A stretch of 64,000 nucleotides of DNA from Paenibacillus xylanexedens (GTDB lineage: Bacteria; Bacillota; Bacilli; Paenibacillales; Paenibacillaceae): positions 1 to 64,000 of the forward strand of contig NZ_JAGIKV010000031.1 in the NCBI RefSeq assembly GCF_017874615.1. The letters run 5' to 3'. Below the pieces are notes generated by a model. It saw only the letters and a program-made list of their open reading frames with translations. It was not told where the DNA came from and made no database searches. Below are positions 15,186-64,000 of this stretch, piece after piece (position 1 is the stretch's first letter; each line of letters opens with the position of its first letter). The translations under genes and the position numbers were made by a program.

Positions 15186-15324
15186 GTTCTTAATCCTCCT
15201 TATTTCAAGCAATATAATCCTACCGTAAATAACGAGCCAATGCCAGTTCAAGCGTGGAGTTTAATTAGACAAGCTTACTTGAAACCAAAGGAGTTGCCGT
15301 GTAGAGAAGAAAAGACTAATATCA

Positions 15325-15344
15325 AATTAGATATATATCTAATT
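15325..15344. promoter_or_regulatory. Perfect 20-bp palindrome, operator candidate
   Basis: AATTAGATATATATCTAATT is a perfect palindrome 16 bp upstream of the DUF2087 regulator, in the gap between it and divergent ypdA. AT-rich palindromes of this form are typical ArsR-family operators, so autoregulation and control of ypdA are plausible. Confidence 0.55.
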
Positions 15345-15360
15345 GAAAGCGAGATGAACG

Positions 15361-15957
15361 ATGATGCAGCTGGAGAAAATTGTGGCTTATCATAAAGCGT
15401 TGGCTGACCCGACCCGGCTTCGCATGCTGCTGTTGTTGGCACAGGGTGAACTGCACGGACAGGCACTTGCCGAGCGGCTGAATCTGTCACAGCCAACCGT
15501 GACACATCATGCATCCAAGCTGAGAGAGGCGGCGCTGATTAAGGAACGACGGGAGAAAAATACAGTGTATTTCACACTCAATCCTTCGTTTATCCGCGAG
15601 AATGCACAGGCTTCGGTTGATTTTATCTTTAATCGAGAGGAGGTTGCGGATATGGGTGATGTGAACGAAACATTGAAAGCGTCGGTCATGAGGAATTTTT
15701 TCTCCAAAGATGGACGACTGCGTCAGATTCCCGCTCAATACAAGAAAAAACTGATTGTACTTGGTCATCTGGTCGAGCAGCTTGAATTTGGTCGGAAGTA
15801 TACGGAAAAAGAAATCAATACATTTATAAAGCAATACCATGAAGACTTTGCCACGATTCGGCGGGAATTTATCATGCATCAGTTCATGTATCGGGAAGAG
15901 GAGATCTATGAATTGAATCCGAAGGAAATGTGGACACGCTGGGATCAGGTCAAATAG
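15361..15957 (+). CDS. ArsR-type regulator with DUF2087 domain
   Basis: A 198-residue regulator. Residues 1-80 form a winged helix of the ArsR type (ALADPTRLRMLLLLAQGE, then LNLSQPTVTHHASKLREA as recognition helix), and about 105-195 match DUF2087 (FFSKDGRLRQIPAQYKKK, GRKYTEKEIN, YHEDFATIRREFI). No Cys-based metal site is apparent. It is divergent from ypdA with a perfect palindrome between them. ATG at 15361 or 15364 are equally possible starts. Confidence 0.85.
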   Translation: MMQLEKIVAYHKALADPTRLRMLLLLAQGELHGQALAERLNLSQPTVTHHASKLREAALIKERREKNTVYFTLNPSFIRENAQASVDFIFNREEVADMGDVNETLKASVMRNFFSKDGRLRQIPAQYKKKLIVLGHLVEQLEFGRKYTEKEINTFIKQYHEDFATIRREFIMHQFMYREEEIYELNPKEMWTRWDQVK

Positions 15958-49994: not shown

Positions 49995-50079
49995 GTACGT
50001 TCGTGACTTCGCAGATGGATTAATATGGGTTATATTATAAGTAGTTCGGATATTCGTTAAAAAGAGAAGTGTATACGAA

Positions 50080-50101
50080 GTTCGTAGATATGATGTTATA
50101 C
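50080..50101 (+). other. Left boundary of the cassette array (attI-like or half site)
   Basis: TTCGTAGATA followed after four bases by GTTATAC (50095-50101) resembles the right half of the array sites (the site ending at 55597 also reads TTCGTAGATA). GTTATAC is perfectly complementary to the heptamer at the end of the first cassette (GTATAAC, 50463). No left half is seen upstream. It could be the primary insertion site or the remains of a lost site. Confidence 0.55.
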
Positions 50102-50140
50102 GACAGAATCAACAAATAGAAAAATCTTGAAAAGGAACTC

Positions 50141-50169
50141 TTGTTCTCTTTTTTAGTAGGTGCTAGAAT
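50141..50169 (+). promoter_or_regulatory. Promoter inside the first cassette
   Basis: TTGTTC (50141-50146) and TAGAAT (50164-50169) are 17 bp apart, 40 bp ahead of a peptide gene. It may also serve cassettes downstream if the following terminator leaks. Confidence 0.5.
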
Positions 50170-50208
50170 ATATTTGAAATCAAATTATGATAACGGAGGT
50201 GAATTTTC

Positions 50209-50359
50209 ATGGCGGTTAAACATATTCCAACAAATATTGTGCACAGTGGAAGTAAAGGGTGGAACTACTGGATGTGGCACGAATACCAATGAACATTCGG
50301 ATCATTGGATGAGTACTGGTGCAATTGTTACTTGCAATAAAAATGGTTGTAAGAACTAA
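50209..50359 (+). pseudogene. Cys/Thr-rich small peptide gene with a frameshift
   Basis: An ATG with AACGGAGGTG upstream opens MAVKHIPTNIVHSGSKG, then runs to a stop at 50290. Removing one G from GGG at 50255-50257 would continue into a frame rich in Gly, Thr, Ser and Cys (GGTTGCGTNTNEHS, ending CNKNGCKN) and give a 49-residue peptide with a Gly-Gly and three Cys. That look recalls ribosomally made, modified peptides such as lanthipeptides, but no modification gene is present. Without the repair it encodes only 27 residues. Function unknown. Confidence 0.4.
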
Positions 50360-50366
50360 AAACGAT

Positions 50367-50416
50367 AAAACAATGACTGCCTGCGATGAGTGTTAGGGCA
50401 GTCATTGTTTTAAACT
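50367..50416 (+). terminator. Terminator in the first cassette
   Basis: AAAACAATGACTGCC and GGCAGTCATTGTTTT form a perfect 15-bp stem around a 15-base loop, with AT-rich flanks. Confidence 0.8.
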
Positions 50417-50462
50417 GAAGAAGATGAATAATAAAGGTATATTCGAGAAGAGATTTCTAGTC

Positions 50463-50577
50463 GTATAACATAATATCCAAGCACCGAATCCTTGGGGGCC
50501 TTGGTCTGCTGGATGGATTTCCAAGAGGTACATCGGCAGAGAATCCCGTTAGAGTTATTAATACAGGAACGTTATAG
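50463..50577 (+). repeat. attC-like site 1
   Basis: Left heptamer GTATAAC, right heptamer GTTATAG. TTGGTCTGCT and GGCAGAG form the internal arm. The inner arm near the ends (TATCCAAG against TTAATAC) is degraded. Confidence 0.65.
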
Positions 50578-50593
50578 AATAGAATCAAATGAA

Positions 50594-50612
50594 AAGAGAG
50601 CCGTTTGGCTTT
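50594..50612 (-). terminator. Terminator of the minus-strand cassette gene
   Basis: On the minus strand AGCC-AAAC-GGCT is followed by CTCTTTTC. Confidence 0.5.
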
Positions 50613-50899
50613 CAATTAGAATTTATATTTAATTCATTATGTAATTGAAGGGCATCTTTAAAACCTTGTAAGTAGATTTCACGTTCTAGAATTGTTTGAA
50701 CTGAGAGGTCTGCATCATCGTAAAGAAATAGAGTTTTATGCATATCCTGAGGTAGAAGTTCATGTAACTGTTTGAAGTAAAGATTTCGCTCAGAAGAGAA
50801 TTGATTGTAAATAGTGTTGTTCTTGAGAAGGTCGCTATATAAGGCTTCAATTCGGTTACGTATCAACGAATCAAGTAAGACTTCTAAAGAATTGTACAT
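50612..50899 (-). CDS. Small helical hypothetical protein (DUF6809-like)
   Basis: A 95-residue protein, the only complete array gene on the minus strand. It begins MYNSLEVLLDSLIRNRIEALY and is helical and charged throughout. This resembles a Firmicute family of about 90 residues that I tentatively associate with DUF6809; function unknown. It shares its cassette with a divergent Cro/CI-type gene, so the two may form a small regulatory or addiction-like unit, which is inference only. Confidence 0.55.
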   Translation of the reverse strand: MYNSLEVLLDSLIRNRIEALYSDLLKNNTIYNQFSSERNLYFKQLHELLPQDMHKTLFLYDDADLSVQTILEREIYLQGFKDALQLHNELNINSN

Positions 50900-51070
50900 A
50901 AATGATCACCGTCCATTATATTTTATTTTGCGAACAAAAATTTAACTTATTGAATATTATTTTATCATAATGAAAATTATAGTCAAGACATATCAAAGAT
51001 ATTTTTGATTAAAAAAATATATTTTCATATAATTAAAGAAAAATTCAATTTGGATACAAAGGAGTACCAG

Positions 51071-51274
51071 ATGATAAGTTATAAACCATTCCAAAAATTA
51101 TTGATTGACAGGGAGATTAAGAAACAAGATTTATTAAGAATGACGGGAATTTCATCGGCAACGATGGCAAAGCTCAACACAAATGAGTATGTATCTTTAG
51201 AAGTCATTGATAAATTATGTACGGCATTGGAATGCCAACCTGGAGATCTTTTGGAACATCTAACAGACCAATGA
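51071..51274 (+). CDS. Cro/CI-type helix-turn-helix protein
   Basis: A 67-residue XRE-type DNA-binding protein: KKQDLLRMTGISSATMAKLNTNE at about residues 17-40 is the helix-turn-helix. GGAG lies ten bases before the ATG at 51071; the frame extends upstream into AT-rich sequence without a ribosome site. It is divergent from the 95-residue gene and may regulate it. Confidence 0.75.
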   Translation: MISYKPFQKLLIDREIKKQDLLRMTGISSATMAKLNTNEYVSLEVIDKLCTALECQPGDLLEHLTDQ

Positions 51275-51324
51275 AAGAATAGAATGTAAGAGGATGTTGG
51301 TTAACTCGAAGATTCGATTCCGCC

Positions 51325-51433
51325 GTATAACATAATATTCAAGCTGTAGCTTCTTTAGAGCTTTGGTCTTGTGGAAGCGTTTCAGCAGACACATCCGACT
51401 TCGTCGGACGTCTTGAATACAACAACGTAAGAC
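51325..51433 (+). repeat. attC-like site 2
   Basis: Left heptamer GTATAAC; right end reads AACGTAAGAC, with a T missing from the usual GTT. Contains TATTCAAGC, TTGGTC, GCAGACACATCC and a small CCGACTTCGTCGG hairpin, then TTGAATAC. Confidence 0.75.
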
Positions 51434-51456
51434 GAAATTTATTGAGGAGAGAAAAT

Positions 51457-52686
51457 ATGAAAAGAAGACCCTCACGAAATGCTGAATGTCCATGTGGAAG
51501 TGAAAAGAAATTCAAAAAATGTTGTATTAATAAAAATTTCAGTTGGATTTTAGATGATGACGGCATTTATAAACGTTCAATACCTATCAAAGATCCAGAT
51601 ATGATTGCAGCTATGGAGGAACATGAGAAAAGATTCATTGAGATATATGGTAGAGAACCAAAGGACGACGACCTTTTCTTCTATGATCAATATGTATCAC
51701 CAATGGATGAATATGAAGTTGAAAACATGACGGTGAAATTATTAGAAGAAATAAACGCAGACCCAGCATTTATCTATGCCTATAAGAAGACTGGTAGATT
51801 AGTAGTCAAAGAGTACGAAGGGAATTTAACTGATGCAGAGTTAAGTGAATGGCGTAGTGCCTTGGCAGAGTACTATGATTTGAATGAGGAACTTCAATTT
51901 GAAGAAGTTGTATCAGATAGTGAGCAAAATAGTTTACTGGTAGAATTTGAATCTGCACTCTACTTGTTTGGAATGATCATTGCAAAGTATGACCAAGTTA
52001 AGGGGATAGACCTCACTCATAATGATTTTATTATGTTTTGTGTCACTAAATCGTTTAAGACCTTTAAATCTATTCAAGTTCAATTAAAAGCCGGACTGAT
52101 TGAAGATTCACTCAATCTATTAAGATCGGTTTATGAAAACTATCTTAACATAATATATGTTTTAAGATATCCCGAAAGATTAGATGATTTGGTGGCAGCA
52201 AGAATCGGTATGGAAGAAGGAACCCACCAGTATTTAATTCATAGTAATGGTAAGTTTGATAAGAGGACTATCGTTGATAAAGTAACTGGGCAACAATATA
52301 TAGGTCATATCTCTAATTATTCAATGGCCACTGCAAGTCCCTATAAAGAGGATATTTTTATCTTTGATAAATTGTATGAAAAACTATCGAGATTCACTCA
52401 TCCAAACATATTAGTTTCTAAGCACTATATAAGTAACGAAAAATTTAATCCTCACCATCGGGGCAAATCTGACGATGCAATTATACTTTCTATATTTATT
52501 AGCATACTTCTGTTAGAGCAACTGCTGGCTATCAACGCAGACGAACAAATGCAACAAGATATAAGAAACCGTCTAGTAAAAATGAAAAATATTATTACAG
52601 AAATATTTAGTGATTTTGTTACTGAAGAAGATGAGAAGTATATTCTTGAAAAATCAATTTATGAAAGAGTCAATAATATTGGGTGA
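51457..52686 (+). CDS. SEC-C zinc motif protein with DUF5677-like domain
   Basis: A 409-residue protein, the longest in the array. Residues 11-23 (CPCGSEKKFKKCC) form a SEC-C zinc finger, found in SecA and in many proteins of unknown role. The middle (about 195-260, LKAGLIEDSLNLLRSVYENYL and YVLRYPERLDDLV) resembles DUF5677, a helical domain seen in abortive-infection-like proteins. GAGGAGA precedes the ATG. A defence role is possible but not shown. It fills its cassette and ends 25 bp before the next site. Confidence 0.7.
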   Translation: MKRRPSRNAECPCGSEKKFKKCCINKNFSWILDDDGIYKRSIPIKDPDMIAAMEEHEKRFIEIYGREPKDDDLFFYDQYVSPMDEYEVENMTVKLLEEINADPAFIYAYKKTGRLVVKEYEGNLTDAELSEWRSALAEYYDLNEELQFEEVVSDSEQNSLLVEFESALYLFGMIIAKYDQVKGIDLTHNDFIMFCVTKSFKTFKSIQVQLKAGLIEDSLNLLRSVYENYLNIIYVLRYPERLDDLVAARIGMEEGTHQYLIHSNGKFDKRTIVDKVTGQQYIGHISNYSMATASPYKEDIFIFDKLYEKLSRFTHPNILVSKHYISNEKFNPHHRGKSDDAIILSIFISILLLEQLLAINADEQMQQDIRNRLVKMKNIITEIFSDFVTEEDEKYILEKSIYERVNNIG

Positions 52687-52711
52687 ACTCGATGAGGATC
52701 CAATAAACTTC

Positions 52712-52859
52712 GTCCAACAACATTTTTACGCTTTTGCCCATTCTGCTCTCGGTCCGGCCTGATGAAGAAAAGATATGGATGATTTCAGTCGGACACATCT
52801 TTTCCCTAAGATAAGAGCTATCTAAGGGGAAAGGTGTCGTGAACACAAGAACGTTATAT
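52712..52859 (+). repeat. attC-like site 3
   Basis: Left heptamer GTCCAAC, right heptamer GTTATAT. Contains CTCGGTCCGGCC, CGGACACATC, an inner hairpin around AAGATAAGAGCTATCTAAGG and CGTGAACAC. The same AAGATAAGAGCTATCTA block returns at the right edge of the window. Confidence 0.75.
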
Positions 52860-53040
52860 GACAGAATCAAATGAAAAGAGAGCCGTTTGGCTCTAATTAG
52901 AATTTATATTTAATTCATTATGTAATTGAAGAATATCTTTAAAACCCTTGCAAGTAGATTTCACGAATGCCAACCTGGAGATCTTTTGGAACATCTAACA
53001 GACCAATGAAAGAACAGAGTATAAGAGGATGTTGGTTAAC
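52860..53040. pseudogene. Deleted copy of an earlier cassette
   Basis: 52865-52965 repeats 50585-50690 (the minus-strand gene's 3' end) and then jumps, at TTCACG/AATGCCAAC, to a copy of 51228-51320 (the tail of the Cro/CI-type gene and its spacer). About 540 bp between these points are missing, so neither gene survives. The cassette still has its two sites. Confidence 0.85.
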
Positions 53041-53059
53041 TCGAAGATGTGATTCCGTC

Positions 53060-53175
53060 GTATAACATAATATTCAAGCTGCGGCTCCTCTGGAGCCTTG
53101 GTCTGCTGGATGAATTCTGTGGAAGCATTTCAGCAGACAACCCCTTCGGGGATCGTGAATACAGGAACGTTATAT
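53060..53175 (+). repeat. attC-like site 4
   Basis: Left heptamer GTATAAC, right heptamer GTTATAT. TATTCA pairs with TGAATA, GTCTGCT with AGCAGAC, and CCCCTTCGGGG is a small hairpin. This is one of the cleanest sites. Confidence 0.85.
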
Positions 53176-53231
53176 GAAATCTGTGTAGAGCTTAAAACCC
53201 ACAATATTAACAATAAAATGGAGGTGTTTTC

Positions 53232-53657
53232 ATGGAGATGATCTATAAAGATTATTTAATTTCTGATGATAAATCTAAGCTTGACAAGCAAGTGATTTTA
53301 GATTTTTTAGTCCAAAGCTATTGGGCTAATAGGAGACCACAAGAACGTATATTAAGATCTATAGAAAATTCACATTGTTTTGGAGTTTATCATAATGACA
53401 AGCAAATTGCTTTTGCAAGAGTAGTTACAGATAATGCTACTGTCTATTATCTCTGTGATGTATTTGTATTGAAAGAATATCAAGGTCAGGGGATTGGAAA
53501 GAAATTGGTAGAACAAATTGTAAATTCTGATGAATATGAATGGATGAGTGGAATTCTTGGGACATTAGATGCACATAGTTTATATGAACAATATGGATTT
53601 GAAAGAGACTTAGAACGATCAATGAGAAGAATACCTCAGGGAAGAAAGACAATGTGA
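53232..53657 (+). CDS. GNAT family N-acetyltransferase (cassette)
   Basis: A 141-residue GNAT. The acetyl-CoA loop YQGQGIGKKL is near residues 78-87 and the late YEQYGFERD near 116-124. It resembles the YjcF/YjgM-like small acetyltransferases common in gene cassettes. GGAGGTG lies upstream of the ATG. Substrate unknown; a resistance role is conceivable but unsupported. Confidence 0.88.
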   Translation: MEMIYKDYLISDDKSKLDKQVILDFLVQSYWANRRPQERILRSIENSHCFGVYHNDKQIAFARVVTDNATVYYLCDVFVLKEYQGQGIGKKLVEQIVNSDEYEWMSGILGTLDAHSLYEQYGFERDLERSMRRIPQGRKTM

Positions 53658-53681
53658 GCAATTCAAGAAGACACAGACTTC

Positions 53682-53847
53682 ATATAACATTATATCCACG
53701 CTTCGGGCCTAAAAGCCCTCGGTCCGCTAGAAGCGATTGGCAGGGAAGCAGAATCAGCGGACACATCCGCACCGACTAACCGCATCGCGGCCGGCACCTG
53801 GCGGAGCCTTAAGTCGGTAGTACGTCGTGGATACAGGAACGTTATCT
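53682..53847 (+). repeat. attC-like site 5
   Basis: Left heptamer ATATAAC, right heptamer GTTATCT. TATCCACG pairs perfectly with CGTGGATA, and GTCCGCT with AGCGGAC. The inner part is long and nearly the same as in the site at 57352. Confidence 0.85.
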
Positions 53848-53886
53848 GAAATCACTACAAATTCAACATTTTGAGGGAGCTATTAC

Positions 53887-54381
53887 GTGGAGATCAACCA
53901 AGAAATAATAAAAATGCTATATCAAATTCAGTGGTTTAGTAAATGTGGAATAAGAGATTATCAAAGTGATACCGTAATATATACTAATTCTTGGGTTGAA
54001 GCGTCTGAACATTATAATTCTCGAGAATGGGAAGAAACAACTTTGAAGGCCAGGAATCAGTTGACTTTGTATTTACATAATAATTTTTCGAAAGAGTATT
54101 TACATTGGAATGCCATAGTCAAAGAAGCAAAGATAATTATCAATACGATGTTAAGCGAGCAACTGGATAGAACTCGAAATGAGTTCCAACTAGAGGATGT
54201 ATTCAGTGAATGTGTTAGATGGGATATCTTAAATATAATTATGGAATACAGTTATTTAAGTAAGTTGAGAAAAAAATATAATAGATTTTACTCGGAACAA
54301 ATATTATATATCTATTCTATAGGCCATCTGCCTTGTGGATGGGAAGGGAAATGGCCTTCAGGTAAGTTAGTGATTTTTTAA
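53887..54381 (+). CDS. Hypothetical protein (cassette)
   Basis: A 164-residue protein, not recognised. It is helical, rich in Tyr, Trp and charged residues (QIQWFSKCGIRDYQSDTV near the start; YIYSIGHLPCGWEGKWPSG at the end). The GTG start follows TGAGGGAG. No membrane segment or signal peptide is seen. It ends 36 bp before the next site. Confidence 0.7.
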   Translation: MEINQEIIKMLYQIQWFSKCGIRDYQSDTVIYTNSWVEASEHYNSREWEETTLKARNQLTLYLHNNFSKEYLHWNAIVKEAKIIINTMLSEQLDRTRNEFQLEDVFSECVRWDILNIIMEYSYLSKLRKKYNRFYSEQILYIYSIGHLPCGWEGKWPSGKLVIF

Positions 54382-54417
54382 ATATTGTTGAAGGCTTCTC
54401 GGGAAGGCAGTGACATC

Positions 54418-54513
54418 AGCTAACATAATATTCACGCTGCGGACATTCGTCCTTGGCCCGGCATTCGCCGGACACCTAGCATTCGCTAGGTCGTGAATAC
54501 AGGAACGTTAGGT
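54418..54513 (+). repeat. attC-like site 6
   Basis: The shortest site, 96 bp. Left heptamer AGCTAAC, right heptamer GTTAGGT. ATTCACG pairs with CGTGAAT; CCGGC-ATTC-GCCGG and CCTAGC-ATTC-GCTAGG are two small hairpins inside. Confidence 0.85.
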
Positions 54514-54539
54514 AAAATTCAGGGAAAGAAGGTAAGGTA

Positions 54540-55424
54540 ATGACAGTAGAAACTCAATATTCAATTAAAAAAGCTGATCAAACCAAATATTCGAAGTGTT
54601 TTGCTACTTATAGAAAGAATATATGGTTTAGACCAAGTTGGTCTTTTTTACAACAGATGATGCTAGATGCAAGCGATTGTTTTTGGATTTATAGAGATGA
54701 TAAACGAGTAGCTGGAATCTCTTTAAGTAACAATGAGTTGGGATCATTTTTTATGATACCTCCATTTGCCTTAACAGTTGATATAGTCTCTTTTCTAAAA
54801 GATGTTGTAGTCAAGAGTTCTGAAGGCAGTCACAGAGTAGAGGCTTATAATGTTTTAAGCGAACATATAGAAGTTTTTATGAACGAGGGTTTTAATATTT
54901 TGAGTACAAGGAAGTGTATGATTAGACCAACAGAGAAGATTGAGACTTCTCTTCCTAGTGATATTACTTGTGTCAAACCTAATCTGGAACACATTACAAG
55001 TATTACTCAGTTAATGAATGAAGCCTATTGTACAGGACCAGATAAAAGGGATTTAGATACATATAGACGAGATTTAATATATTATTTTGAACACAATAAT
55101 CAAGAAGAAGTACTAGATGCATCAACTATCCTAGTTCAAAAAGAAACTAATGAGATTGTGGGTGTTTGTCTGGTCTCCATTTGGGAAGGTATCCCTCTTA
55201 TTTATGAAATTGCTGTTAAACCAAACTACAACAATCAAGGATTAGGGAGATATATGTTATGTAAGGCTATTACTCATTTAGAGTCAGTATATCCGGTAAT
55301 TCGATTATTTTTAACTGCAGGGAATAATGCTGAATATTTGTATTCGAAGCTTGGTTTTCTGTCAGGGGAGGAGACTTCTCACTTAGTTTTTGAAACTGAA
55401 GAAACACCGATAGCAACTCAATGA
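54540..55424 (+). CDS. Two-part GNAT-like acetyltransferase (cassette)
   Basis: A 294-residue protein. The C-terminal half is a clear GNAT, with NQGLGRYM near 226-233 and EYLYSKLGF near 265-273. The N-terminal half (about 1-135) looks like a degenerate GNAT fold without the acetyl-CoA loop, as in mycothiol-synthase-like tandem GNATs. AAAGAAGGTAAG precedes the ATG. It ends 14 bp before the next site. Confidence 0.82.
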   Translation: MTVETQYSIKKADQTKYSKCFATYRKNIWFRPSWSFLQQMMLDASDCFWIYRDDKRVAGISLSNNELGSFFMIPPFALTVDIVSFLKDVVVKSSEGSHRVEAYNVLSEHIEVFMNEGFNILSTRKCMIRPTEKIETSLPSDITCVKPNLEHITSITQLMNEAYCTGPDKRDLDTYRRDLIYYFEHNNQEEVLDASTILVQKETNEIVGVCLVSIWEGIPLIYEIAVKPNYNNQGLGRYMLCKAITHLESVYPVIRLFLTAGNNAEYLYSKLGFLSGEETSHLVFETEETPIATQ

Positions 55425-55437
55425 TGTCCTGAACTCC

Positions 55438-55597
55438 ACCTAACACCGTATCTACGCTGCGGGCTACGCCCTTGGTTCGTTAGAAGTGGTAAACGGGGAA
55501 GCTGACTCAGCTCACAACCCTGCGAGGCTAAGTCCGTCGGACCTGGTCACGTTGCTCCCTTAAGCCTCTCGGGTTCGTAGATACAACAACGTTCGGC
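55438..55597 (+). repeat. attC-like site 7
   Basis: Left heptamer ACCTAAC, right heptamer GTTCGGC. TATCTACG pairs perfectly with CGTAGATA, a compensated change relative to most sites. The inner part (CCTGCGAGGCTAAGTC ... TTAAGCCTCTCGGG) is shared with the sites at 59925 and 62956. Confidence 0.85.
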
Positions 55598-55655
55598 GAA
55601 ACCACCCAGGAGTAATTGTATAATTGTATGCGGATCAAGGAAGGGGATAAATTGA

Positions 55656-56446
55656 ATGATATTGAATTTGGAATTAGCGGATATTTTAGAAAAATCTGAA
55701 ATTAATTATATGGTTGATCGAATGACTGCAATCAGAGAACGAGAAGGAAACCCTGAGGGAATTGAAATAAAACGATTCGGGAGAGCACGGCGTTTTATAG
55801 TAAAACCATGCCATGGGGTCTTTTTAATAATGTAAAGGGAAGGATTTCTGAAGATGTCATTGAAGATATCTTAGACTTTTATAATGAGCGGGAAAGGAAT
55901 TTTGAGATTCAAGTCATCCCGGGTAATATAAATCAAGAAGTTATGAAAAAACTCCATAATATAGGCTTTTATCAATCAGGATTTCATACAACGCTTTTTT
56001 GTGAACCTGGAAATCTAAATTCGTTTGATCATCATAAACTGGAAATTCGTGAACTACTTGAAGATGAGTTCGATACATATGCAGAAATTCATTGTTTAGG
56101 TACAGGATTATCTCTTGATGGGAAAGAACACGTAGCTGCAAATAACCGAGTACTGTTTTCCCGTCCTGGATGGCACTATTATTTGGGGTTGGATCAGGGC
56201 TATCCAGTTGCAGTAGCTGTAATGTATATAGAGAACAATGTTGCTTCATTAACATTTGCGACAACACTACCTGAATATCGAAATAAAGGATTTCAAACAA
56301 ATTTATTACTTAGACGAATTCATGATACCTACAACAATTGTAATCTCATTGTTAGTCAGTGCTCATTTGGCTCGCAAAGCCATCGGAATATGGAAAGAGT
56401 GGGTATGAGAATTGGATATACCCGAGCAACATGGACAAGGGATTAA
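55656..56446 (+). pseudogene. GNAT-like acetyltransferase gene with a frameshift (cassette)
   Basis: An ATG at 55656, with AAGGGG upstream, opens a frame (MILNLELADILEKSEINY) that continues about 50 residues to FIVKPCHG. Adding one A to the run at 55802-55805 would join it smoothly to the long frame starting at 55808 (MPWGLFNNVKGR, 212 residues), giving about 263 residues. The second part holds the GNAT core, with PEYRNKGFQTNLLLRR near its residue 158. Either it is a pseudogene, a slippage-expressed gene, a shorter protein from 55808, or a sequencing error. There is no ribosome site before 55808. Confidence 0.7.
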
Positions 56447-56473
56447 TTGTGAGGGGAAATTTAGGCTGGCATC

Positions 56474-56589
56474 GCCTAACATAATATTCAAAGCCGCGGC
56501 CCTTCGGAGTCTTGGTCTGCGAGGTGGATTTCGAAGAGGCATTTCAGCAGACAACTCCGTTGGGGTTCATGAATACAGGAACGTTATCT
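56474..56589 (+). repeat. attC-like site 8
   Basis: Left heptamer GCCTAAC, right heptamer GTTATCT. ATTCA pairs with TGAAT; TTGGTCTGC and GCAGACAAC form the internal arm; CTCCGTTGGGG is a small hairpin. Confidence 0.85.
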
Positions 56590-56620
56590 TACATAAACCT
56601 ATTACATTTAGGAGCAAATA

Positions 56621-57340
56621 ATGAAGATCACTTTCTCGAAATGGGTTCAATATTATCGAAAAAATAATCAAAACCTCAAATATATTCATTGGGATGACAA
56701 CTATAAATTAACAAATAATGAAAGAGAAATAATCATTAAGTCAATTCAACAGTTTCAATTAGGAGAAAACTCTGAAGGTAAATATCTAATTAAACGTGCA
56801 CAAGAATATGTACATCAGACACAAGATCAGGATTACTATGAAGCGCTTATAGAATTCATTAAAGAAGAACAGAGGCACGCTAGAGATCTAGGCAGATTTA
56901 TGAAGGTACAGGGAATCCCACTCCTTCGTAGACATTGGGTGGACAATGTATTTAGAAGATTACGTCGATATGCAAGTCTAGAACAATCAGTCATTGTTCT
57001 ATTAACTGCTGAGATCATTGCTAAGTTGTACTATAAAGCCTTGCAAAAATCTACAAAGTCAGAAGTATTAATAGATATATGTAATCAAATTTTAAGTGAT
57101 GAGGAGAAACATGTTCAGTTTCAATCTGAAACACTTCATAAATTTGCTCAAAATAGAAGTGTTTTCTTTAACAGAATAGTTTATATCCTTCGTAGAATCC
57201 TTTTTGAAGGAACGCTAATTATCGTGTGGTATCAACATAAGCGTGTATTTAAAGCTGGGGGATATAAACTCAAAAGTTATTACTATGAATGCCGTCATGA
57301 GTTTAACTTAACAAAGAAGATTATAGCTAATTCACAGTAG
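56621..57340 (+). CDS. Ferritin-like diiron protein (cassette)
   Basis: A 239-residue four-helix protein. Two ExxH motifs, at about E83-H86 (EEQRH) and E161-H164 (EEKH), with a further Glu near 131 (TAEIIAKLYY), are the metal ligands of ferritin-like diiron proteins. The C-terminal 60 residues carry a hydrophobic stretch (FEGTLIIVWY) and a basic end. Relatives include oxygenases and storage proteins; the reaction is unknown. GGAG precedes the ATG. Confidence 0.75.
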   Translation: MKITFSKWVQYYRKNNQNLKYIHWDDNYKLTNNEREIIIKSIQQFQLGENSEGKYLIKRAQEYVHQTQDQDYYEALIEFIKEEQRHARDLGRFMKVQGIPLLRRHWVDNVFRRLRRYASLEQSVIVLLTAEIIAKLYYKALQKSTKSEVLIDICNQILSDEEKHVQFQSETLHKFAQNRSVFFNRIVYILRRILFEGTLIIVWYQHKRVFKAGGYKLKSYYYECRHEFNLTKKIIANSQ

Positions 57341-57351
57341 AGGTTTACGTC

Positions 57352-57520
57352 AGATAACATTATATCCAAGCTTTGGGTCCTGACGCTCCCTCGGTCAGCC
57401 CGAAGGGAATTGGCAGGGAAGTGGAATCTGGCGGACACATCCGCACCGACTAACCGCATCGCGGCCGTCTTTTGACGGAGCCTTAATTCGGTGGGACGTC
57501 GTGAATACAGAACTTTATAG
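57352..57520 (+). repeat. attC-like site 9
   Basis: Left heptamer AGATAAC; right end AACTTTATAG, where the usual G of GTT is T. The inner 90 bp closely match site 5 (53682-53847), including ACATCCGCACCGACTAACCG. Confidence 0.8.
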
Positions 57521-57579
57521 GTTATCAGCGTAAAAACAGTATAACAATTCATAATTTTATTTTGAATAGGAGAGAAACC

Positions 57580-58239
57580 ATGCTGGAGGCAGTCATTTTC
57601 GATATGGATGGAACACTATTTCAAACAAACAAAATCTTAGAGTTATCGTTAGAAGAAACATTCTCTATCTTAAGGTCTCTAAATGAATGGACGAGTGAAG
57701 CTCCAACCCAAAAATATCGTGAAATAATGGGAGTTCCTCTACCAGTAGTTTGGGAAACGTTATTGCCGAACCATTCAAATGAAATCAGACGAATTGTGGA
57801 CGAGATCTTCCTAGAGAAGCTAATTGCAAATATTAATTATGGCAATGGTGCACTTTATCCACATGTCAAAGAAGTTTTTGATTTTTTAAAACAGGAAGGC
57901 TGCTTAATTTTTATTGCAAGTAATGGACTAATCGAATACCTCAATGCTATTGTTAACTGTTACAAGTTAAATAATTGGGTGACAGAAACCTTTAGCATCC
58001 AACAAATAGAGACTCAGAATAAGGATGACTTAGTCGGTCATATTCTTAAAAAACATCACATCAGCAATGCAACTGTAGTTGGGGACAGGATTTCTGATTT
58101 CAATGCCGCAAAAAACAATGGGTTGAAGGCTATTGGTTGTCGATTTGATTTTGCCCAAGAAGGGGAGCTTGCACAAGCGGATTTTATTATTGACGACTTA
58201 CTTGAATTAAAAAGTATATTTAGACATCAGGGAAAATAG
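57580..58239 (+). CDS. HAD family hydrolase (cassette)
   Basis: A 219-residue HAD of the phosphoglycolate-phosphatase/beta-phosphoglucomutase type. Motif I DMDGTLF is at residues 8-14, motif II IASNG near 116, and motif IV GDRISDFNAA near 170-179. The cap is helical. The ATG at 57580 follows AGGAGAG; the frame upstream enters the site region. Substrate unknown. Confidence 0.88.
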   Translation: MLEAVIFDMDGTLFQTNKILELSLEETFSILRSLNEWTSEAPTQKYREIMGVPLPVVWETLLPNHSNEIRRIVDEIFLEKLIANINYGNGALYPHVKEVFDFLKQEGCLIFIASNGLIEYLNAIVNCYKLNNWVTETFSIQQIETQNKDDLVGHILKKHHISNATVVGDRISDFNAAKNNGLKAIGCRFDFAQEGELAQADFIIDDLLELKSIFRHQGK

Positions 58240-58277
58240 AATGCTTTTGTAATTATATCGATGAAGGCGCTGAAATC

Positions 58278-58394
58278 CTATAACACCATATTTAAGCTGC
58301 GGTTACCCCTTGGTCACAATGATGTTTTTGGCACAGGGGAGTTGATTCATGTGACAACTTGCTTCGCAAGTTCGTGAATACAAAAACGTTATAG
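58278..58394 (+). repeat. attC-like site 10
   Basis: Left heptamer CTATAAC, right heptamer GTTATAG. GTCAC pairs with GTGAC in the internal arm (a compensated change), and ACTTGCTTCGCAAGT is a small hairpin. Confidence 0.85.
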
Positions 58395-58445
58395 GAAATC
58401 AATAAAGACAGTTAACAGATAAATAATTAAAAGCAGGTGAAAACA

Positions 58446-59024
58446 ATGACTACAGATTTCATCATTCTCCATGGCTCAGCAGGAAATGGGAAGACAACAT
58501 TGTCTCGGAGACTACATGAACATTTAAGATCTCCATATTTTGAATTTGGATGGATTCCAGAATTCCGTTCTCTATCTCCTTCAGTTCAAATCACGCAGAG
58601 GGAAGAAGAGCAGTTGTCATTTGAGAATTTGATGTTAGTTGTTAAAAATTATAATCGACATGGATTTAAGAACATTATAATTACAGACTTGGATGACGCA
58701 CGCATACGGGATATTCCTATTCAATTTGAAGGATTCAATTATATTATTTTTACACTCTATAGTGATGAGGACGAAGTAATTAGACTAAGAATTCAGAACA
58801 GAAATAATGGGAATAGCTATTCTGATTGGGAACAATCTATTAAATTGAATTCGCTCATTAGGGGGAGAAACAAACTGCCGAATGAATATCGTATTTTGAA
58901 TTCAAGCAAGGATGTCGAAAGCACATTAAAAGAACTATTAAATCATTTGGAAAGCCATCTCCCATCACGAAATAATAAAATACAAGTAAGTAAAAATGAT
59001 TTCTATAGCTATATAAAAGATTGA
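58446..59024 (+). CDS. P-loop kinase-like protein (cassette)
   Basis: A 192-residue protein with Walker A GSAGNGKTT at residues 10-18 and a nucleoside-kinase-like build: FEFGWIPEFR near 35-44 and the LIRGRNKLPNEYR lid-like segment near 140-152. ATG at 58446 follows AGGTG; GTG at 58437 overlaps that site. Shikimate- or nucleotide-kinase-like proteins that modify antibiotics (chloramphenicol phosphotransferase type) share this form, but nothing specific points to one. Confidence 0.75.
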   Translation: MTTDFIILHGSAGNGKTTLSRRLHEHLRSPYFEFGWIPEFRSLSPSVQITQREEEQLSFENLMLVVKNYNRHGFKNIIITDLDDARIRDIPIQFEGFNYIIFTLYSDEDEVIRLRIQNRNNGNSYSDWEQSIKLNSLIRGRNKLPNEYRILNSSKDVESTLKELLNHLESHLPSRNNKIQVSKNDFYSYIKD

Positions 59025-59064
59025 ATAAACGCGTTTTACCTAATTCTAAGAAGACGCTGACATC

Positions 59065-59182
59065 CTATAACAAAATGTTCACGCATAGGGCATCCGCCCA
59101 CGGTCCCAGTAGCGACTTCGGAGAGTAGTTGCTGCGGACACATCCGCTTTCGCCGAGCGTCGTGAATACAGGAACGTTAGCA
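59065..59182 (+). repeat. attC-like site 11
   Basis: Left heptamer CTATAAC, right heptamer GTTAGCA. GTTCACG pairs with CGTGAAT imperfectly; ACGGTCCCAGTAGC and GTTGCTGCGGACA form the internal arm; CTTTCGCCGAGCG follows. Confidence 0.8.
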
Positions 59183-59250
59183 GAAACCAAGGGATTCCTT
59201 AATCAAATTATAAAGATTAGATATACTATTATTAAAGGACGGGGATTTCA

Positions 59251-59877
59251 ATGAGTAGCTTGTTATTAACTTCTTGTGGTTTTTATACTGATGATATTAA
59301 AAACCAATTTCTGGATTTAATTGATGGAGATATCTCTCAATTAAAAGTCTCAATTATTACAACAGCATCCCCTATGCGAGAAAATAATAGATATGCACAA
59401 AGAGCATTGCAAGAGTTTAAGGACATGGGATTTCAGCATATCAATTTTGTAGATATAGAATTTGATGACCCGCAAATTCTCTTACATAGAGATGTTATAT
59501 ATATCAATGGTGGAAATCCATTTACATTATTGTATTACGCTAAGAAAAGTGGTGCTGATGAAATTATCAGAACACTGGCCGCACAGAATGTAATTATAGT
59601 TGGAGTAAGCGCAGGAACGTTATTACTGGGGCCGAATATTAACATTGTTGATTTCTTTACTCCACAGATGAACACAATGGATTTAACGGATTTTAAGGCA
59701 TTAGGTGTAACCGACAAGCTTATTTTTCCTCACTATGATCGAGAGGACATATTTAAAGATAGTACTAATAAAACAATTGAAGAGAGAATAGTGGAATTTG
59801 AATCCAATGAGAACTGTAGTGTGACAAGGCTTAAAGATGAAGAATATATCTCAATCTTAATGAAACAAGCACATTGA
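59251..59877 (+). CDS. Peptidase E-like (S51) protein (cassette)
   Basis: A 208-residue class-I-glutamine-amidotransferase-fold serine peptidase. The nucleophile Ser120 is in GVSAGT, and INGGNPFTLL lies near 85-94, both typical of peptidase E (aspartyl dipeptidase) and cyanophycinase relatives. It lacks a signal peptide, so it is cytosolic. GGACGGGG is upstream. Substrate unknown. Confidence 0.85.
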   Translation: MSSLLLTSCGFYTDDIKNQFLDLIDGDISQLKVSIITTASPMRENNRYAQRALQEFKDMGFQHINFVDIEFDDPQILLHRDVIYINGGNPFTLLYYAKKSGADEIIRTLAAQNVIIVGVSAGTLLLGPNINIVDFFTPQMNTMDLTDFKALGVTDKLIFPHYDREDIFKDSTNKTIEERIVEFESNENCSVTRLKDEEYISILMKQAH

Positions 59878-59924
59878 AAGTGATAAATTCATTGAAAGTA
59901 GCTCGAAGAAGCCCTTAAAAATCT

Positions 59925-60079
59925 TGCCAACACCGTATTCACACTGAGGGGCTCAGCCCCTTGGTCTGTCAGTGGGGTTTCGAGGAAGTAGTATCCAGTA
60001 GACAATTCCTGTGAGGCTAAGTCTTCGACCCAGTCGCTCCATTAAGTCTCTCGGGTTCGTGAATACAACAACGGTAGAT
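59925..60079 (+). repeat. attC-like site 12
   Basis: Left heptamer TGCCAAC; right end AACGGTAGAT, with G in place of the first T. GTATTCACA pairs with GTGAATAC. The inner part matches sites 7 and 15 (GTGAGGCTAAGTCTTCGACC ... GTCTCTCGGG). Confidence 0.8.
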
Positions 60080-60115
60080 AAAATAACGAAGAAGTTTGTA
60101 TTGGGAGTTGATTCA

Positions 60116-60895
60116 TTGAAGTATTCAACTGTAGTTCTTGACTTGGACGGAACATTATTAAATTCAAAAAAAGAGGTATCTAAGAGAAATGTAGATGCGG
60201 TTTTATCTTGTTATCAGAAAGGAATGAGAATAATATTTGCAACAGCTCGACCGCCGAGGGCGGTTAATTGGTTGCTTCCACAAGGATTAGTAGATATCGG
60301 GGCTTTTGTATATTACAACGGAGCTCAAGTGATATGTAAGGAAACCAAGATAGAGATTAATGAATCAATCCCTGCTAATGTAACTACAGAAATTCTTGAT
60401 TACTGTTTGAAGTGTGACCCTCAAATTGAACTGACTATGGAAGTGAAGGATGAGTGGTTTAGTTTAAGAGAGCTTGATTATATGAGCTCAATGAACACAC
60501 AATCAAACCCCATAGTAAAACCCTTAAAAGAATTAAAGCAATATGATGCTACGAAGATACTTCTGACTGGCAATAATCACAATCCTGGATTGTTTGAAAA
60601 ATTCGAGGGTAGAGTGAATATACTAATTACGGATAATAATAAATTAGTACAAATCATGCCTCTTCTGGCATCTAAGGAAATGGCAATTACTAAACTCTGT
60701 GAATTATATAATGTAGAATTGGATTCCGTTATTGTATTTGGTGATGATCATAATGATGTAGGCCTCTTTAAGATGGCGGGATATTCTATTGCTATGGGAA
60801 ATGCGATTAGGGAATTGAAGGAAATCGCTGATGAAATAACCGTTAATAATGATGAAAACGGTGTTGCTGTAAGTCTAGAAAGATTTTGGGGGTAA
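60116..60895 (+). CDS. Cof-type HAD hydrolase (cassette)
   Basis: A 259-residue HAD-IIB (Cof) phosphatase. Motif I DLDGTLLNSKK starts at residue 9 and motif IV is GDDHNDVGLFKMAG near 207-220. The open frame extends back through the whole preceding site to 60011, but I start at the TTG at 60116, which follows GGGAG by eight bases and puts motif I at the usual place. Members dephosphorylate sugar phosphates or flavins. Confidence 0.87.
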   Translation: MKYSTVVLDLDGTLLNSKKEVSKRNVDAVLSCYQKGMRIIFATARPPRAVNWLLPQGLVDIGAFVYYNGAQVICKETKIEINESIPANVTTEILDYCLKCDPQIELTMEVKDEWFSLRELDYMSSMNTQSNPIVKPLKELKQYDATKILLTGNNHNPGLFEKFEGRVNILITDNNKLVQIMPLLASKEMAITKLCELYNVELDSVIVFGDDHNDVGLFKMAGYSIAMGNAIRELKEIADEITVNNDENGVAVSLERFWG

Positions 60896-60909
60896 CTCAA
60901 GGTTACTTT

Positions 60910-61065
60910 ATCTAACAGTACATTCATACACCGTCGCACTTGCTCCTCGGTCGCCAAGAAGGATATCTGAGAAGTTGATTAAGGTGACACATTCAATCAG
61001 CTAAGTCTATTGACCCGTTCCCAACGGTAAGGTGCTTGAACGTCAGGAATACAACAACGTTAGCC
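60910..61065 (+). repeat. attC-like site 13
   Basis: Left heptamer ATCTAAC, right heptamer GTTAGCC. ATTCAT and GGAAT form a weak inner arm; GTCGCC and GGTGAC form the internal arm with one G:T pair. Confidence 0.75.
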
Positions 61066-61096
61066 GAAAGAAGTTCTTATTTTAGGAGGAGTCTAT

Positions 61097-61867
61097 ATGA
61101 TATTAGAAAAAGTTATAAATAGAATTGAAATACAAAGTGAATATAAGGATTTGGTTGATAAGTATATAGATCATATACTTAACGAATTTAAAGGTAAGAT
61201 TCATAGCATTTATATGTGTGGCTCGATTCCAAAAGGAACAGCTCAACCTTTTAAGTCAGATGCAGACTTTACTATTGTATGTGCAAATCCCCAAGATATT
61301 GATTACGAACGATTGTCAAATATCAAAGACAGGCTATTGGAAGAATATCCATTCGTCACTAAGATGGATACGATCATTTGCTCGATTGATGATGTATTAA
61401 GTAGACCGAATGATTGGGGTTTTTGGATTAAGATTATTTGTGTTTGCATACATGGGGAGGACATTGGTGAAAAAGTACCCCCGATCATAATTTCTCCAGA
61501 ATTCATTTTAGACTTAAATACAGATACCAAGGAGGAAGTAGATCGTGTACATCGTTCACTTTCTAATGTTAGTGATCTCTCAATGAAAACTAGATATATT
61601 AAAGGTTACTCTAAGAGATTAATTCGTGCATTATACTCTTTGGTTTTAGAAGATACAGGGGTATGGGAAGATGAAATCATTAAGATGAAGAATGCTATAT
61701 TAAACTATTGTGAGATTAACTCCGCTTTAGTTGAGTATCTATATGCTTGTTACTTGGATAGTAGCAATGTACTTGTTGAAGAGTTTTTGAGAATTGCAGA
61801 TGAAATATATCGCTACTTTGAAAACGTTTTAAATACAATGGCTGCTTCCAGAAATTCATTTGACTAA
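61097..61867 (+). CDS. Nucleotidyltransferase-domain protein (cassette)
   Basis: A 256-residue nucleotidyltransferase with the family motif GSIPKGTAQPFKSDADF: G42-S43 and metal ligands D55 and D57. The helical C-terminal part resembles that of aminoglycoside nucleotidyltransferases and of other minimal nucleotidyltransferases. GGAGGAG is upstream of the ATG. The stop codon is part of the left heptamer of the next site. Resistance activity is only a possibility. Confidence 0.8.
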   Translation: MILEKVINRIEIQSEYKDLVDKYIDHILNEFKGKIHSIYMCGSIPKGTAQPFKSDADFTIVCANPQDIDYERLSNIKDRLLEEYPFVTKMDTIICSIDDVLSRPNDWGFWIKIICVCIHGEDIGEKVPPIIISPEFILDLNTDTKEEVDRVHRSLSNVSDLSMKTRYIKGYSKRLIRALYSLVLEDTGVWEDEIIKMKNAILNYCEINSALVEYLYACYLDSSNVLVEEFLRIADEIYRYFENVLNTMAASRNSFD

Positions 61868-62022
61868 CAATATATTAACGATCGTAGTCACTCTGAGAAG
61901 CGAGTGAGCACATCCAGTCCCTAAGCCCGTCGGGACGTTACTTCATTAGGTGTTCGGCAAGCCTCACAACTATAAGCAGCGACTCTAAGGGGCCAGGACG
62001 TCGTCAATACAAAACGTTAGAT
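61862..62022 (+). repeat. attC-like site 14
   Basis: Left heptamer GACTAAC (its TAA is the stop of the gene before), right heptamer GTTAGAT. The TTGGTC block is not recognisable; GTGAGCACATCC and CGTCAATAC remain. This is a divergent site. Confidence 0.7.
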
Positions 62023-62059
62023 GAAATTGCTGTAATAAGAAATAAATAAGTGCGGACAA

Positions 62060-62415
62060 ATGGGGGAGACTAGTCCTAAGTTTGCTGATAAAGAATCAAT
62101 TGAAGTCTTATAAAGAAATTACATTTACCGCCACTTACTCCGTTTTCACAGGACTGGGAATATACGTTGGCTGATTCTTCGAAAGTAAATGAATTTATTA
62201 CATATTATGAAAATAATAAATTTAACAACAAAGAGAAATTTATGCTGATGATAGTTATAATATCTTCATTTGATGATTATCTTTCCGAGGGAATAGGAAT
62301 TGAAGAGATCAGAATTTGGAATCGAATAAAACAAAATATACTTAAAGACGATAAATTACATACAACAACGTTATATACAATCAGGCAAGAATTTACACCC
62401 CGAGGAGAGGTTTAG
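62060..62415 (+). pseudogene. Small hypothetical gene, probably frameshifted (cassette)
   Basis: An ATG at 62060 opens MGETSPKFADKESIEVL and stops at 62111. One extra A near 62110 would continue as KKLHLPPLTPFSQDWEY into the open frame ending at 62415, for about 119 residues. The downstream part (EFITYYENNKFNNKEKFMLM, ISSFDDYL) looks like an intact immunity- or accessory-type helical protein. A TTG at 62167 could start an 82-residue product, but it has no clear ribosome site. Pseudogene is my preferred reading. Confidence 0.5.
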
Positions 62416-62961
62416 TTGTTCAATACAAACGCAATAACAAAATTTATAGGTTTATGTTTTATGTTCTTAGGCTATTGGAGATTAACTGATTTTGTAATTT
62501 TAAATCCGGTATTTACTTTTAGTTTCTCTATTGCTGGCTTCTTTTTCATATTATTTGATTTAACAACTCACCATCTTGAGCAATTAAAAAGGGAAAAAGA
62601 AAAATACTATAGTTGGAAAGGGAAGATTCTTAGATTTTTAAAACTCTCTCTACTATTCTTAACTGCATTTTCTATAGTAGCATTGCCTCATCTTACACTT
62701 GGTTGGGAACAGGAATTAATTTTGAAATTAAATGATGCAATTGTTCTTTTAGGTTTAGGTATTGTTGTTTTCCTAATCGGACTAAAATCAGACCAAGAAA
62801 TAGATAACGTACTAGAGGTCTTTGAAGACGTAGAAAATAGATTGAAAAATATCGATGATAAATTTAGCGGTATAATAGCTAGTAAAGATGAAGAGATAGA
62901 AAAATTAAAACATGAACTTAAAGAACTGAGAGATGACTCAGGAAGCCCGGGAAGCATATAA
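62416..62961 (+). CDS. Four-helix membrane protein with coiled-coil tail (cassette)
   Basis: A 181-residue membrane protein. Hydrophobic segments lie at about 8-23, 30-46, 70-90 and 107-122, followed by a charged coiled coil (about 125-172, SKDEEIEKLKHELKEL). The TTG start at 62416 abuts the upstream stop codon and has GAGGAGAGG five bases before it. Its own stop lies within the next site. It is probably translated together with the preceding gene, the only two-gene plus-strand cassette here. Confidence 0.65.
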   Translation: MFNTNAITKFIGLCFMFLGYWRLTDFVILNPVFTFSFSIAGFFFILFDLTTHHLEQLKREKEKYYSWKGKILRFLKLSLLFLTAFSIVALPHLTLGWEQELILKLNDAIVLLGLGIVVFLIGLKSDQEIDNVLEVFEDVENRLKNIDDKFSGIIASKDEEIEKLKHELKELRDDSGSPGSI

Positions 62962-63134
62962 CAACACATTCAACGCTTCGGTCGCTCCCTCGGTCCGTTA
63001 GAGGCATTTCGAGGAAGCTTATTCAGCGACAACACCTGCGAGGCTAAGTCTTCGACCCAGCAAGGCAATTACTTCGTTTTATCGCCGCGGCAACCTTAAG
63101 CCTCTCGGGTTCGTGAATGCGGAAAGCGTTATGC
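62956..63134 (+). repeat. attC-like site 15
   Basis: The longest site, 179 bp. Left heptamer ATATAAC, right heptamer GTTATGC. CATTCA pairs with TGAATG, again a compensated change. The inner part shares GCGAGGCTAAGTC and TTAAGCCTCTCGGG with site 7. Confidence 0.8.
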
Positions 63135-63179
63135 GCCATTACCTGTAAATATTAAAGATAATATTTAAGGAGAAAACTT

Positions 63180-63836
63180 ATGAAAAGTAAGATACTCTTA
63201 TTATTTTTTATTACGATAATGTTTTCATCTTGTCAAGATAGTAGTCTACCGACTACTTTAAACAGCGAAACTAATTCAATAATGAATTCTGAACTGCCTC
63301 CTGATGTTGTGAGTACAGGTGATGGAACAGAATCAAAAGAAATAACGGAAGGTCTATCAGATACTGCTAACAATAAAAAAATATTACCCATGAGCATTGG
63401 GAACCTTGATTTAAAAGGAGAATTTTATGATGAAATGCTTCGAAATCTTATAGATCATCATTATGAAGTGGAATTTAATGAATTTCAAAATTCCAAAGAG
63501 ATTATTACAACATTGGAATGGGGGGCATTTGAAAGCAAATATACAGAGATTTGGGATAAAGAGTTGAATCAAATATATAAAACGCTTCTTTCTAAGTTGG
63601 ATAGAGAACCAAGAGAAGCACTAATTGAATCGCAGAAAGAATGGTTACAGCATCACTTAAGGGAAACAAAATTTGTAGAGAAGACATTTATTGATAATGG
63701 TTACCTTGGATCAAAAGGATCAGTAAGCCTAACAACGGTTATACGGGAGAGAATTAGGGAAAGAACAATGCAATTATTTGAATATCGATATCTACTAGAT
63801 GGTGAAATTGAGTTTGTTTACCAAAGTAAAAAATAA
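63180..63836 (+). CDS. Lipoprotein with LprI-like (DUF1311) domain (cassette)
   Basis: A 218-residue lipoprotein. The signal MKSKILLLFFITIMFSSC has the lipid-attachment Cys at 18. A Ser/Thr-rich linker follows, and the C-terminal part (about 115-200) carries the LprI/DUF1311 look: ELNQIYKTLLSKLDREPREA and ESQKEWLQHHLRE. LprI-type proteins inhibit lysozyme. AAGGAG is upstream of the ATG. It would sit on the outer face of the membrane. Confidence 0.75.
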   Translation: MKSKILLLFFITIMFSSCQDSSLPTTLNSETNSIMNSELPPDVVSTGDGTESKEITEGLSDTANNKKILPMSIGNLDLKGEFYDEMLRNLIDHHYEVEFNEFQNSKEIITTLEWGAFESKYTEIWDKELNQIYKTLLSKLDREPREALIESQKEWLQHHLRETKFVEKTFIDNGYLGSKGSVSLTTVIRERIRERTMQLFEYRYLLDGEIEFVYQSKK

Positions 63837-63890
63837 AGTTGGAATCTGGATCAAAGGTTTTTTAGGTGATACTTCGAAGAGGGTAACGGC

Positions 63891-64000
63891 GCATAACAAT
63901 GTAATCAAGCTGCGGGGCTACCACGTCTTGGTCGCCTGCGAAGTTTCGATGAAATGAATCCATACGACACTTTAATTTTACTTAAGATAAGAGCTATCTA
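63891..64000 (+). repeat. attC-like site 16 (runs off the window)
   Basis: Left heptamer GCATAAC, then TAATCAAGCTGCGGGG, CTTGGTCG and CGACAC, then the AAGATAAGAGCTATCTA block known from site 3. The right half lies outside the window. The next ten bases before GCATAAC also mirror the head of the same cassette (63128 onward). Confidence 0.75.

Follow-up and report, generated by a model that had tools for sequence, protein, structure and literature searches.

An integron-type cassette array at an integrase-less attI in Paenibacillus xylanexedens and its probable place in a second kind of integron in Bacillota

The last 14 kb of a 64,000-nucleotide stretch of the Paenibacillus xylanexedens genome (contig NZ_JAGIKV010000031.1, positions 1 to 64,000, hereafter the window) hold a row of short gene units separated by palindromes, and they raise the question of what kind of system moves such units in a Firmicute. 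A sequence-only reading of this DNA had proposed a true integron-type system, possibly served by a non-standard recombinase. We conclude that the region is very probably an integron-type cassette array seated at a conserved attI that lacks an integrase gene, and that it is part of a second integron type, found widely in Bacillota, with a clade of tyrosine recombinases related to but distinct from the integron integrase IntI. The proposal of a true integron-type system in a Paenibacillus-like Firmicute is supported by a rule of complementarity within units, by unit boundaries at AACGTTA and by a recombinase family linked to the sites.

The array runs head to tail on the plus strand from 50,097 to 64,000, as read in the sequence and measured. 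It contains 15 complete attC-like sites between 50,467 and 63,130, and site 16 begins at about 63,891-63,894 and is completed past the window edge at contig position 64,030 (locus L015). The contig extends 2.6 kb past the window and has a further site at 65,316-65,429, giving 17 complete sites overall. Sixteen palindromes had been counted from the sequence alone; the array is real, and the exact tally for the window is 15 complete sites, one that ends past the edge and one half-site at 62,359-62,373, of which only the right side is left. The sites start with NNNTAAC and finish with GTTANNN, for a working core of TAAC...GTTA, while the ends first suggested, RYYYAAC and GTTRRRY or near variants, were matched in their strict forms by 4/17 and 3/17 sites, respectively. 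In 12 of the 17 complete sites, the outer arms, typically TATTCACG and CGTGAATA, formed 7-8 of 8 possible pairs when G-T was allowed. Unpaired spacers, usually of 4 nucleotides on the left (inside AAC) and 7 on the right (before GTT), separate the arms from the site ends. The description of one forward gene per unit held for most units, but not for 50571-51427 (an open reading frame, or ORF, in reverse), 52853-53169 (no intact gene) or 62016-63128 (disturbed at the half-site).

A plain repeat finder missed the attC sites, and a loose first site finder was dropped, having many matches in reversed controls too. A covariance model (R1) was used instead, built from 46 sites in 20 arrays, 3 of the sites being from this window; a MAFFT alignment of all of the mixed-length window sites was poor, and the short-armed class was aligned instead. 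There were 25 R1 matches at E<0.1 in the 7.0 Mb genome, all inside C31:50463-65435 (the array of the window) and C2:391099-425248 (a second array, on contig C2). Chance origin of the sites is excluded because all 25 matches fall in these two arrays, and a check for lone sites around the genome accordingly returned none. Within the C2 array, R1 matches form two groups, at 391-397 kb and at 421-425 kb, and the roughly 24 kb that separates the groups (G000:C2:397-421 kb; L054/L055) has none. An Rfam scan of the window array gave no relevant match. The features of the region are as follows.

50035-50099, plus: attI without an integrase gene; cassette junction at GTT (about 50,095-50,097) near its end
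50463-50577, plus: attC site 1 (R1 match, E 1.7e-4)
50571-51427, plus: cassette with an HTH_26 gene (51005-51274, plus) and a DUF6809-like ORF (50612-50899, minus) (Pfam)
51325-51433, plus: attC site 2 (R1 match, E 2.4e-10)
51427-52853, plus: cassette with a SEC-C / DUF5677 protein (51442-52686) (Pfam)
52712-52859, plus: attC site 3 (R1 match, E 6.3e-4)
52853-53169, plus: short remnant unit without an intact gene (ORF list)
53060-53175, plus: attC site 4 (R1 match, E 1.3e-19)
53169-53841, plus: cassette with a GNAT acetyltransferase (Pfam)
53682-53847, plus: attC site 5 (R1 match, E 2.8e-13)
53841-54507, plus: cassette with a protein of no assigned function; 97.3% copy in the C2 array of the same genome
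54418-54513, plus: attC site 6, where the three-arm fold is clearest (R1 match, E 3.2e-25; fold z -4.36)
54507-55591, plus: cassette with a GNAT protein (Pfam)
55438-55597, plus: attC site 7 (R1 match, E 2.9e-5)
55591-56583, plus: cassette with a protein (55808-56446) without a Pfam match
56474-56589, plus: attC site 8 (R1 match, E 1.3e-14)
56583-57514, plus: cassette with a ferritin-like protein (weak Pfam match); other species carry the same cassette beside different neighbours
57352-57520, plus: attC site 9 (R1 match, E 0.009)
57514-58388, plus: cassette with a HAD hydrolase (Pfam)
58278-58394, plus: attC site 10 (R1 match, E 2.0e-10)
58388-59176, plus: cassette with a P-loop NTPase (weak Pfam match)
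59065-59182, plus: attC site 11 (R1 match, E 4.6e-10)
59176-60073, plus: cassette with a peptidase S51 (Pfam)
59925-60079, plus: attC site 12 (R1 match, E 0.0025)
60073-61059, plus: cassette with a HAD hydrolase (Hydrolase_3; Pfam); the corresponding place in genomes G041 and G002 is without the cassette
60910-61065, plus: attC site 13, found by eye from its TAAC/GTTA ends, under the model threshold
61059-62016, plus: cassette with a nucleotidyltransferase (Pfam)
61862-62022, plus: attC site 14, found by eye, arms 7/8
62356-62373, plus: right half-site of an attC, left half gone
62370-63128, plus: cassette with a predicted membrane protein (62416-62961), no Pfam match (ORF list)
62956-63134, plus: attC site 15, found by eye, arms 7/8
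63128-64000, plus: cassette with an LprI-like lipoprotein (63180-63836; Pfam); 14 nucleotides of complementarity between the cassette end and its own start
63891-64000, plus: attC site 16, left part, the rest past the window edge

The cassette type that joins an HTH_26 gene to a reverse-strand DUF6809-like ORF recurs at L015:700-1320 and 1960-2215 and at L104 about 14720-15460, and is perhaps a stabilising pair. The small ORF of the first cassette (MAVKHIPTN..., 50209-50359) is frameshifted in the window and open in L104 at about 15690-15540.

The closing bases of an integron cassette are complementary to its own opening bases, since the two meet in the circular form. Window cassettes had complementarity between their own end and start at 7.06 of 10 positions compared to 4.13 for other pairs (permutation p<1e-5), and the end of a cassette matched the start of the next one no better than chance. 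When 304 cassettes from many genomes were analyzed, their own end-start complementarity was reached by 0 of 20,000 permutations, and the starts of next cassettes gave the values of shuffled ones. This complementarity reached roughly position 17 and was interrupted at positions 10-11 by a mismatch that was constant.

Comparison of 314 cassettes yielded 69 homologous pairs. Where the members of a pair had unrelated neighbours, homology started and stopped at AACGTTA, which by these alignments places the crossover at the core. The downstream (3') site followed the gene (identity 0.76, compared to 0.62 for the upstream site and a background of 0.57; p=0.0014), so that the 3' attC is carried along with its cassette. 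One cassette was 99% identical between the C2 array and another species; its upstream site was unrelated, its downstream site matched, and homology stopped at the next GTTA. The cassette at 53841-54507 has its 97.3% copy in the C2 array. Related genomes therefore do differ by units cut at AAC/GTT, as had been anticipated, in both flank and homologous-cassette comparisons.

These boundaries bear on the alternative that the palindromes are ordinary repeats and that the genes are shuffled by homologous recombination without a site-specific enzyme. Long similar stretches are common to the sites, and some neighbouring changes are not clean units, both of which such shuffling could produce. However, homology breaks at the 7-bp core and not across the site, the end-start complementarity of the units is left unexplained, and an integrase and attI precede the sites in relatives. 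We regard this alternative as extremely unlikely.

Sites of the R1 type were present in 75/76 Paenibacillus genomes and in 187/300 Paenibacillaceae genomes, covering 16/19 genera. De novo folding of the 46-site alignment produced an outer stem and three hairpins. In the named helices of these sites, 94.4% of cells paired, and two-sided changes were found in 171 cells (shuffled mean 70). The covariation score of the alignment was 0.324 vs 0.114, and the signal was lost when partners were slid by 1-3 columns. For 66 more sites, mostly from other species or genera, covariation was 0.354 vs 0.122, in an alignment that was fitted to the model and hence is biased towards it. A hairpin of the form CCTAAGATA(A/G)GAGCTATCTAAGG was observed in attC interiors at 14/385 sites (42 kb), whereas cassette bodies, covered on both strands over 270 kb, held a single match. 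It is found at 52809 and 63985 of the window and in L094, L098, L102, L183, L195, L230, L238 and L244, is common to Paenibacillus and distant Bacillota arrays, and might be a terminal arm that has been conserved.

Six other genomes carry an identical copy of the 24-mer ACGAAGTTCGTAGATATGATGTTA (50075-50098) from the attI that heads the array. Upstream of the array, the chromosome was kept in nine other Paenibacillus species at about 72-95% identity. In closer species, flank homology stopped at 50,093-50,107 of the window, in attI-like sequence, and the cassettes differed from there on. The window attI was also similar to attI sequences that adjoin integrases. An attI without an integrase was seen at one chromosomal place across species (matching places L108 and L112-L116) and could be a platform served in trans; in G041 the integrase locus is some 0.9 Mb away.

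The absence of an integrase gene, part of the original description, was confirmed for the 64 kb window but not for the genome. The genome's best match to an integron integrase (C2:426074-427175, minus strand) lies directly upstream of the second array in the same orientation and is a broken member of the family. With this integrase as the query, 48/76 genomes of the genus had a match at E<=1e-60, with many copies intact and many decayed. In all four loci read from end to end (L088, L103, L104 and the C2 locus of this genome), the integrase, attI and cassettes followed in that order on one strand, and the other integrase loci examined had R1 matches beside the gene. Intact relatives with attI and downstream cassettes occur across Paenibacillaceae. 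The search for a recombinase linked to the sites thus succeeded, with the family adjoining arrays in many relatives. At L088:5200-7600, the cassette array is interrupted by a block of unrelated genes, including a TetR-like regulator recognized by eye.

The best match of the integrase was VchIntIA (2a3v), but about 42 residues of that protein are missing from it. Compared to IntI1, blocks of 31 and 10 residues are missing, and the IntI additional domain was not found, in keeping with the suggestion of a non-standard recombinase. This domain has been described as a distinguishing feature of IntI with a role in single-strand binding (PMC7784347). The catalytic R, K, HxxR, H and Y are kept in intact relatives. 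The flanking boxes stand 55-61 apart in 96 relatives; the distance was 100-101 in three IntI proteins and 100 in a canonical IntI from Bacillota. A structure predicted with moderate confidence (mean predicted local distance difference test score 78, predicted template modelling score 0.48) had 2a3v as its nearest fold and was used for that only. Three members scored 197.8, 207.7 and 181.6 bits against TIGR02249 (cut-off 265; IntI1 507.5) and 214.6, 224.8 and 194.2 bits against NF040815 (XerA_Arch; cut-off 220). The L088 integrase was under the cut-offs for XerC (196.1 vs 335.15 bits) and XerD (190.7 vs 329.6). In a tree with few IntI, long Xer branches and an unsettled root, IntI formed one branch (100/98) and the new proteins were separate with weak support (74/76).

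A further explanation is that the region is an ordinary cluster of attC sites lacking integron integrases (CALIN), that is, a decayed canonical integron with IntI and standard attC that lost its integrase. The window does have attC-like sites without an integrase, and IntegronFinder 2.0 reported a few CALIN in Firmicutes (PMC9024848). However, the genome has no canonical IntI above the cut-off, relatives with such arrays have a linked integrase without the additional domain, the sites have three covarying arms, and R1 had zero matches in plasmid R388, a carrier of a class 1 integron. We consider a CALIN of this kind very unlikely, although some of the CALIN reported for Firmicutes may be arrays of the present kind.

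Relatives of the integrase at 40-50% identity were found in Clostridia and beyond. We applied a generic test of the unit rule to 87 loci from relatives (some from Paenibacillaceae, most not) and obtained 65 links, while the controls, reversed or opposite-strand, gave 0. In Pseudobacteroides cellulosolvens, Alkaliphilus and several Bacillota of other classes, among others, the gene adjoins arrays whose site sequences differ from the Paenibacillus ones. The first cassette of one array in a Clostridia metagenome-assembled genome (L142:7300-7860) looks, by eye, like an antitoxin and Fic/Doc-type toxin pair. No repeated sites were found beside archaeal, Nitrospirota, Dehalococcoidia or other non-Bacillota integrase relatives; lone weak links were seen only in L162 (Nitrospinota) and L193 (Atribacterota) and were not counted as arrays. 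Among sampled Bacillota, the clade was present in 26/398 genomes and canonical IntI above the cut-off in 2/398, an approximate ratio of 13x that comes from searches at unlike thresholds (E<=1e-75 and E<=1e-60) and includes some clade genomes without an array in the DNA examined. The canonical IntI were located at G637:C1 and G451:C122 (L252-L254), and the one examined has the additional domain.

Several observations weigh against an integron served by this recombinase clade. The C2 integrase gene is broken by at least 2 lesions, namely an early stop near the frame start and a small frameshifting deletion relative to the intact L088:1810-2925; the array may now be frozen because the strain's only clade member is broken. 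Under strict criteria, no clean insertion of a single cassette between conserved neighbours (A-B vs A-X-B) was found. Some homologous cassettes differ in the interior of the 3' attC, which indicates that exchange of other kinds also occurs. Folding of single sequences gives three clear arms for only some of the sites. Finally, 27/75 site-bearing Paenibacillus genomes gave no clade integrase at E<=1e-60. This last count also favours the idea that the units are moved by another recombinase, such as XerC/XerD or a transposase, in the manner of pdif modules. That idea is highly improbable in our judgment: the linked recombinase lies directly at attI in the loci examined, the gaps are explained by integrase loss with retention of the array (decayed copies being common), and a dif-like core was not noticed in the sites, no scan having been made for one.

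Returning to an integron-type array with its own recombinase clade, we propose that the recombinase would cut within the AACGTTA core of attI and attC. The cassette would be released in circular form, which would bring its own end (R'') and start (R') together to pair over about 17 nucleotides with the fixed mismatch at 10-11. One strand of the junction would then fold into an outer stem bearing three hairpins, and it is this folded strand that would be inserted into attI, where the array begins. The clade recombinase probably catalyzes this reaction on a single-stranded substrate, a recombinase may be able to act in trans on the second attI, and cassettes would be expressed from outside. In IntI, the additional domain is held to be necessary for attC recombination. 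It is reasonably likely that Bacillota hold a second, distinct lineage of integrons, the main type of the phylum, whose recombinase lies outside IntI, lacks the additional domain and inserts cassettes via a folded single-stranded, three-arm attC (in Paenibacillaceae); this lineage could be either sister or ancestral to the IntI system.

These data suggest that the reported rarity of integrons in Firmicutes and the additional-domain rule partly reflect search tools built on IntI and canonical attC. Two questions become testable: whether a simpler system, such as the one in Bacillota, gave rise to the IntI integron, and what takes the place of the additional domain when folded attC is recognized. 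The arrays also point to a large mobile pool of cassettes in soil and plant-associated bacteria that is likely missed by current annotation.

Searches limited to open-licence PMC papers, without preprints, found no report of the system for Paenibacillus, Paenibacillaceae, Clostridia or Bacillota. Integrons have been reported as extremely rare in Firmicutes, Limnochorda pilosa being the one complete case of the IntegronFinder 2.0 survey (PMC9024848). The window alone resembles a CALIN, being an attC array (at least 2 sites) with no integrase nearby; unlike a CALIN, it starts from an attI of its own, seated at a conserved locus, and has kin elsewhere with a non-IntI integrase. Like the archaeal integrons, the system is an integron outside the classical host range; the archaeal ones were reported to retain both the additional domain of IntI and the attC fold of bacteria (PMC9668308), neither of which is seen here. 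The integrase is a member of the same tyrosine recombinase superfamily as XerA, XerC and XerD, which give the closest scores besides IntI, yet it differs from XerC and XerD in falling below their cut-offs and in being tied to attI and cassette arrays. The system appears to work like an integron, but we did not file it under the classical ones, since two features that define them, the additional domain of IntI and an attC of one hairpin, were looked for and not found. The integrase is also under the integron-integrase cut-off, and the sites fold into three arms on an outer stem of about 17 nucleotides in place of a single imperfect hairpin. The R box of a classical attC is 7 nucleotides, so the pairing of about 17 nucleotides here is longer. 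The integrase also lies on the strand of the cassettes, unlike that of R388. Nevertheless, the system shares with the chromosomal and mobile integrons (Vibrio cholerae and class 1) an attI by the integrase, mostly promoterless one-gene cassettes with attC at the 3' end, a crossover at the GTT core, cassette ends that pair in the circular form, and an integrase nearest to VchIntIA.

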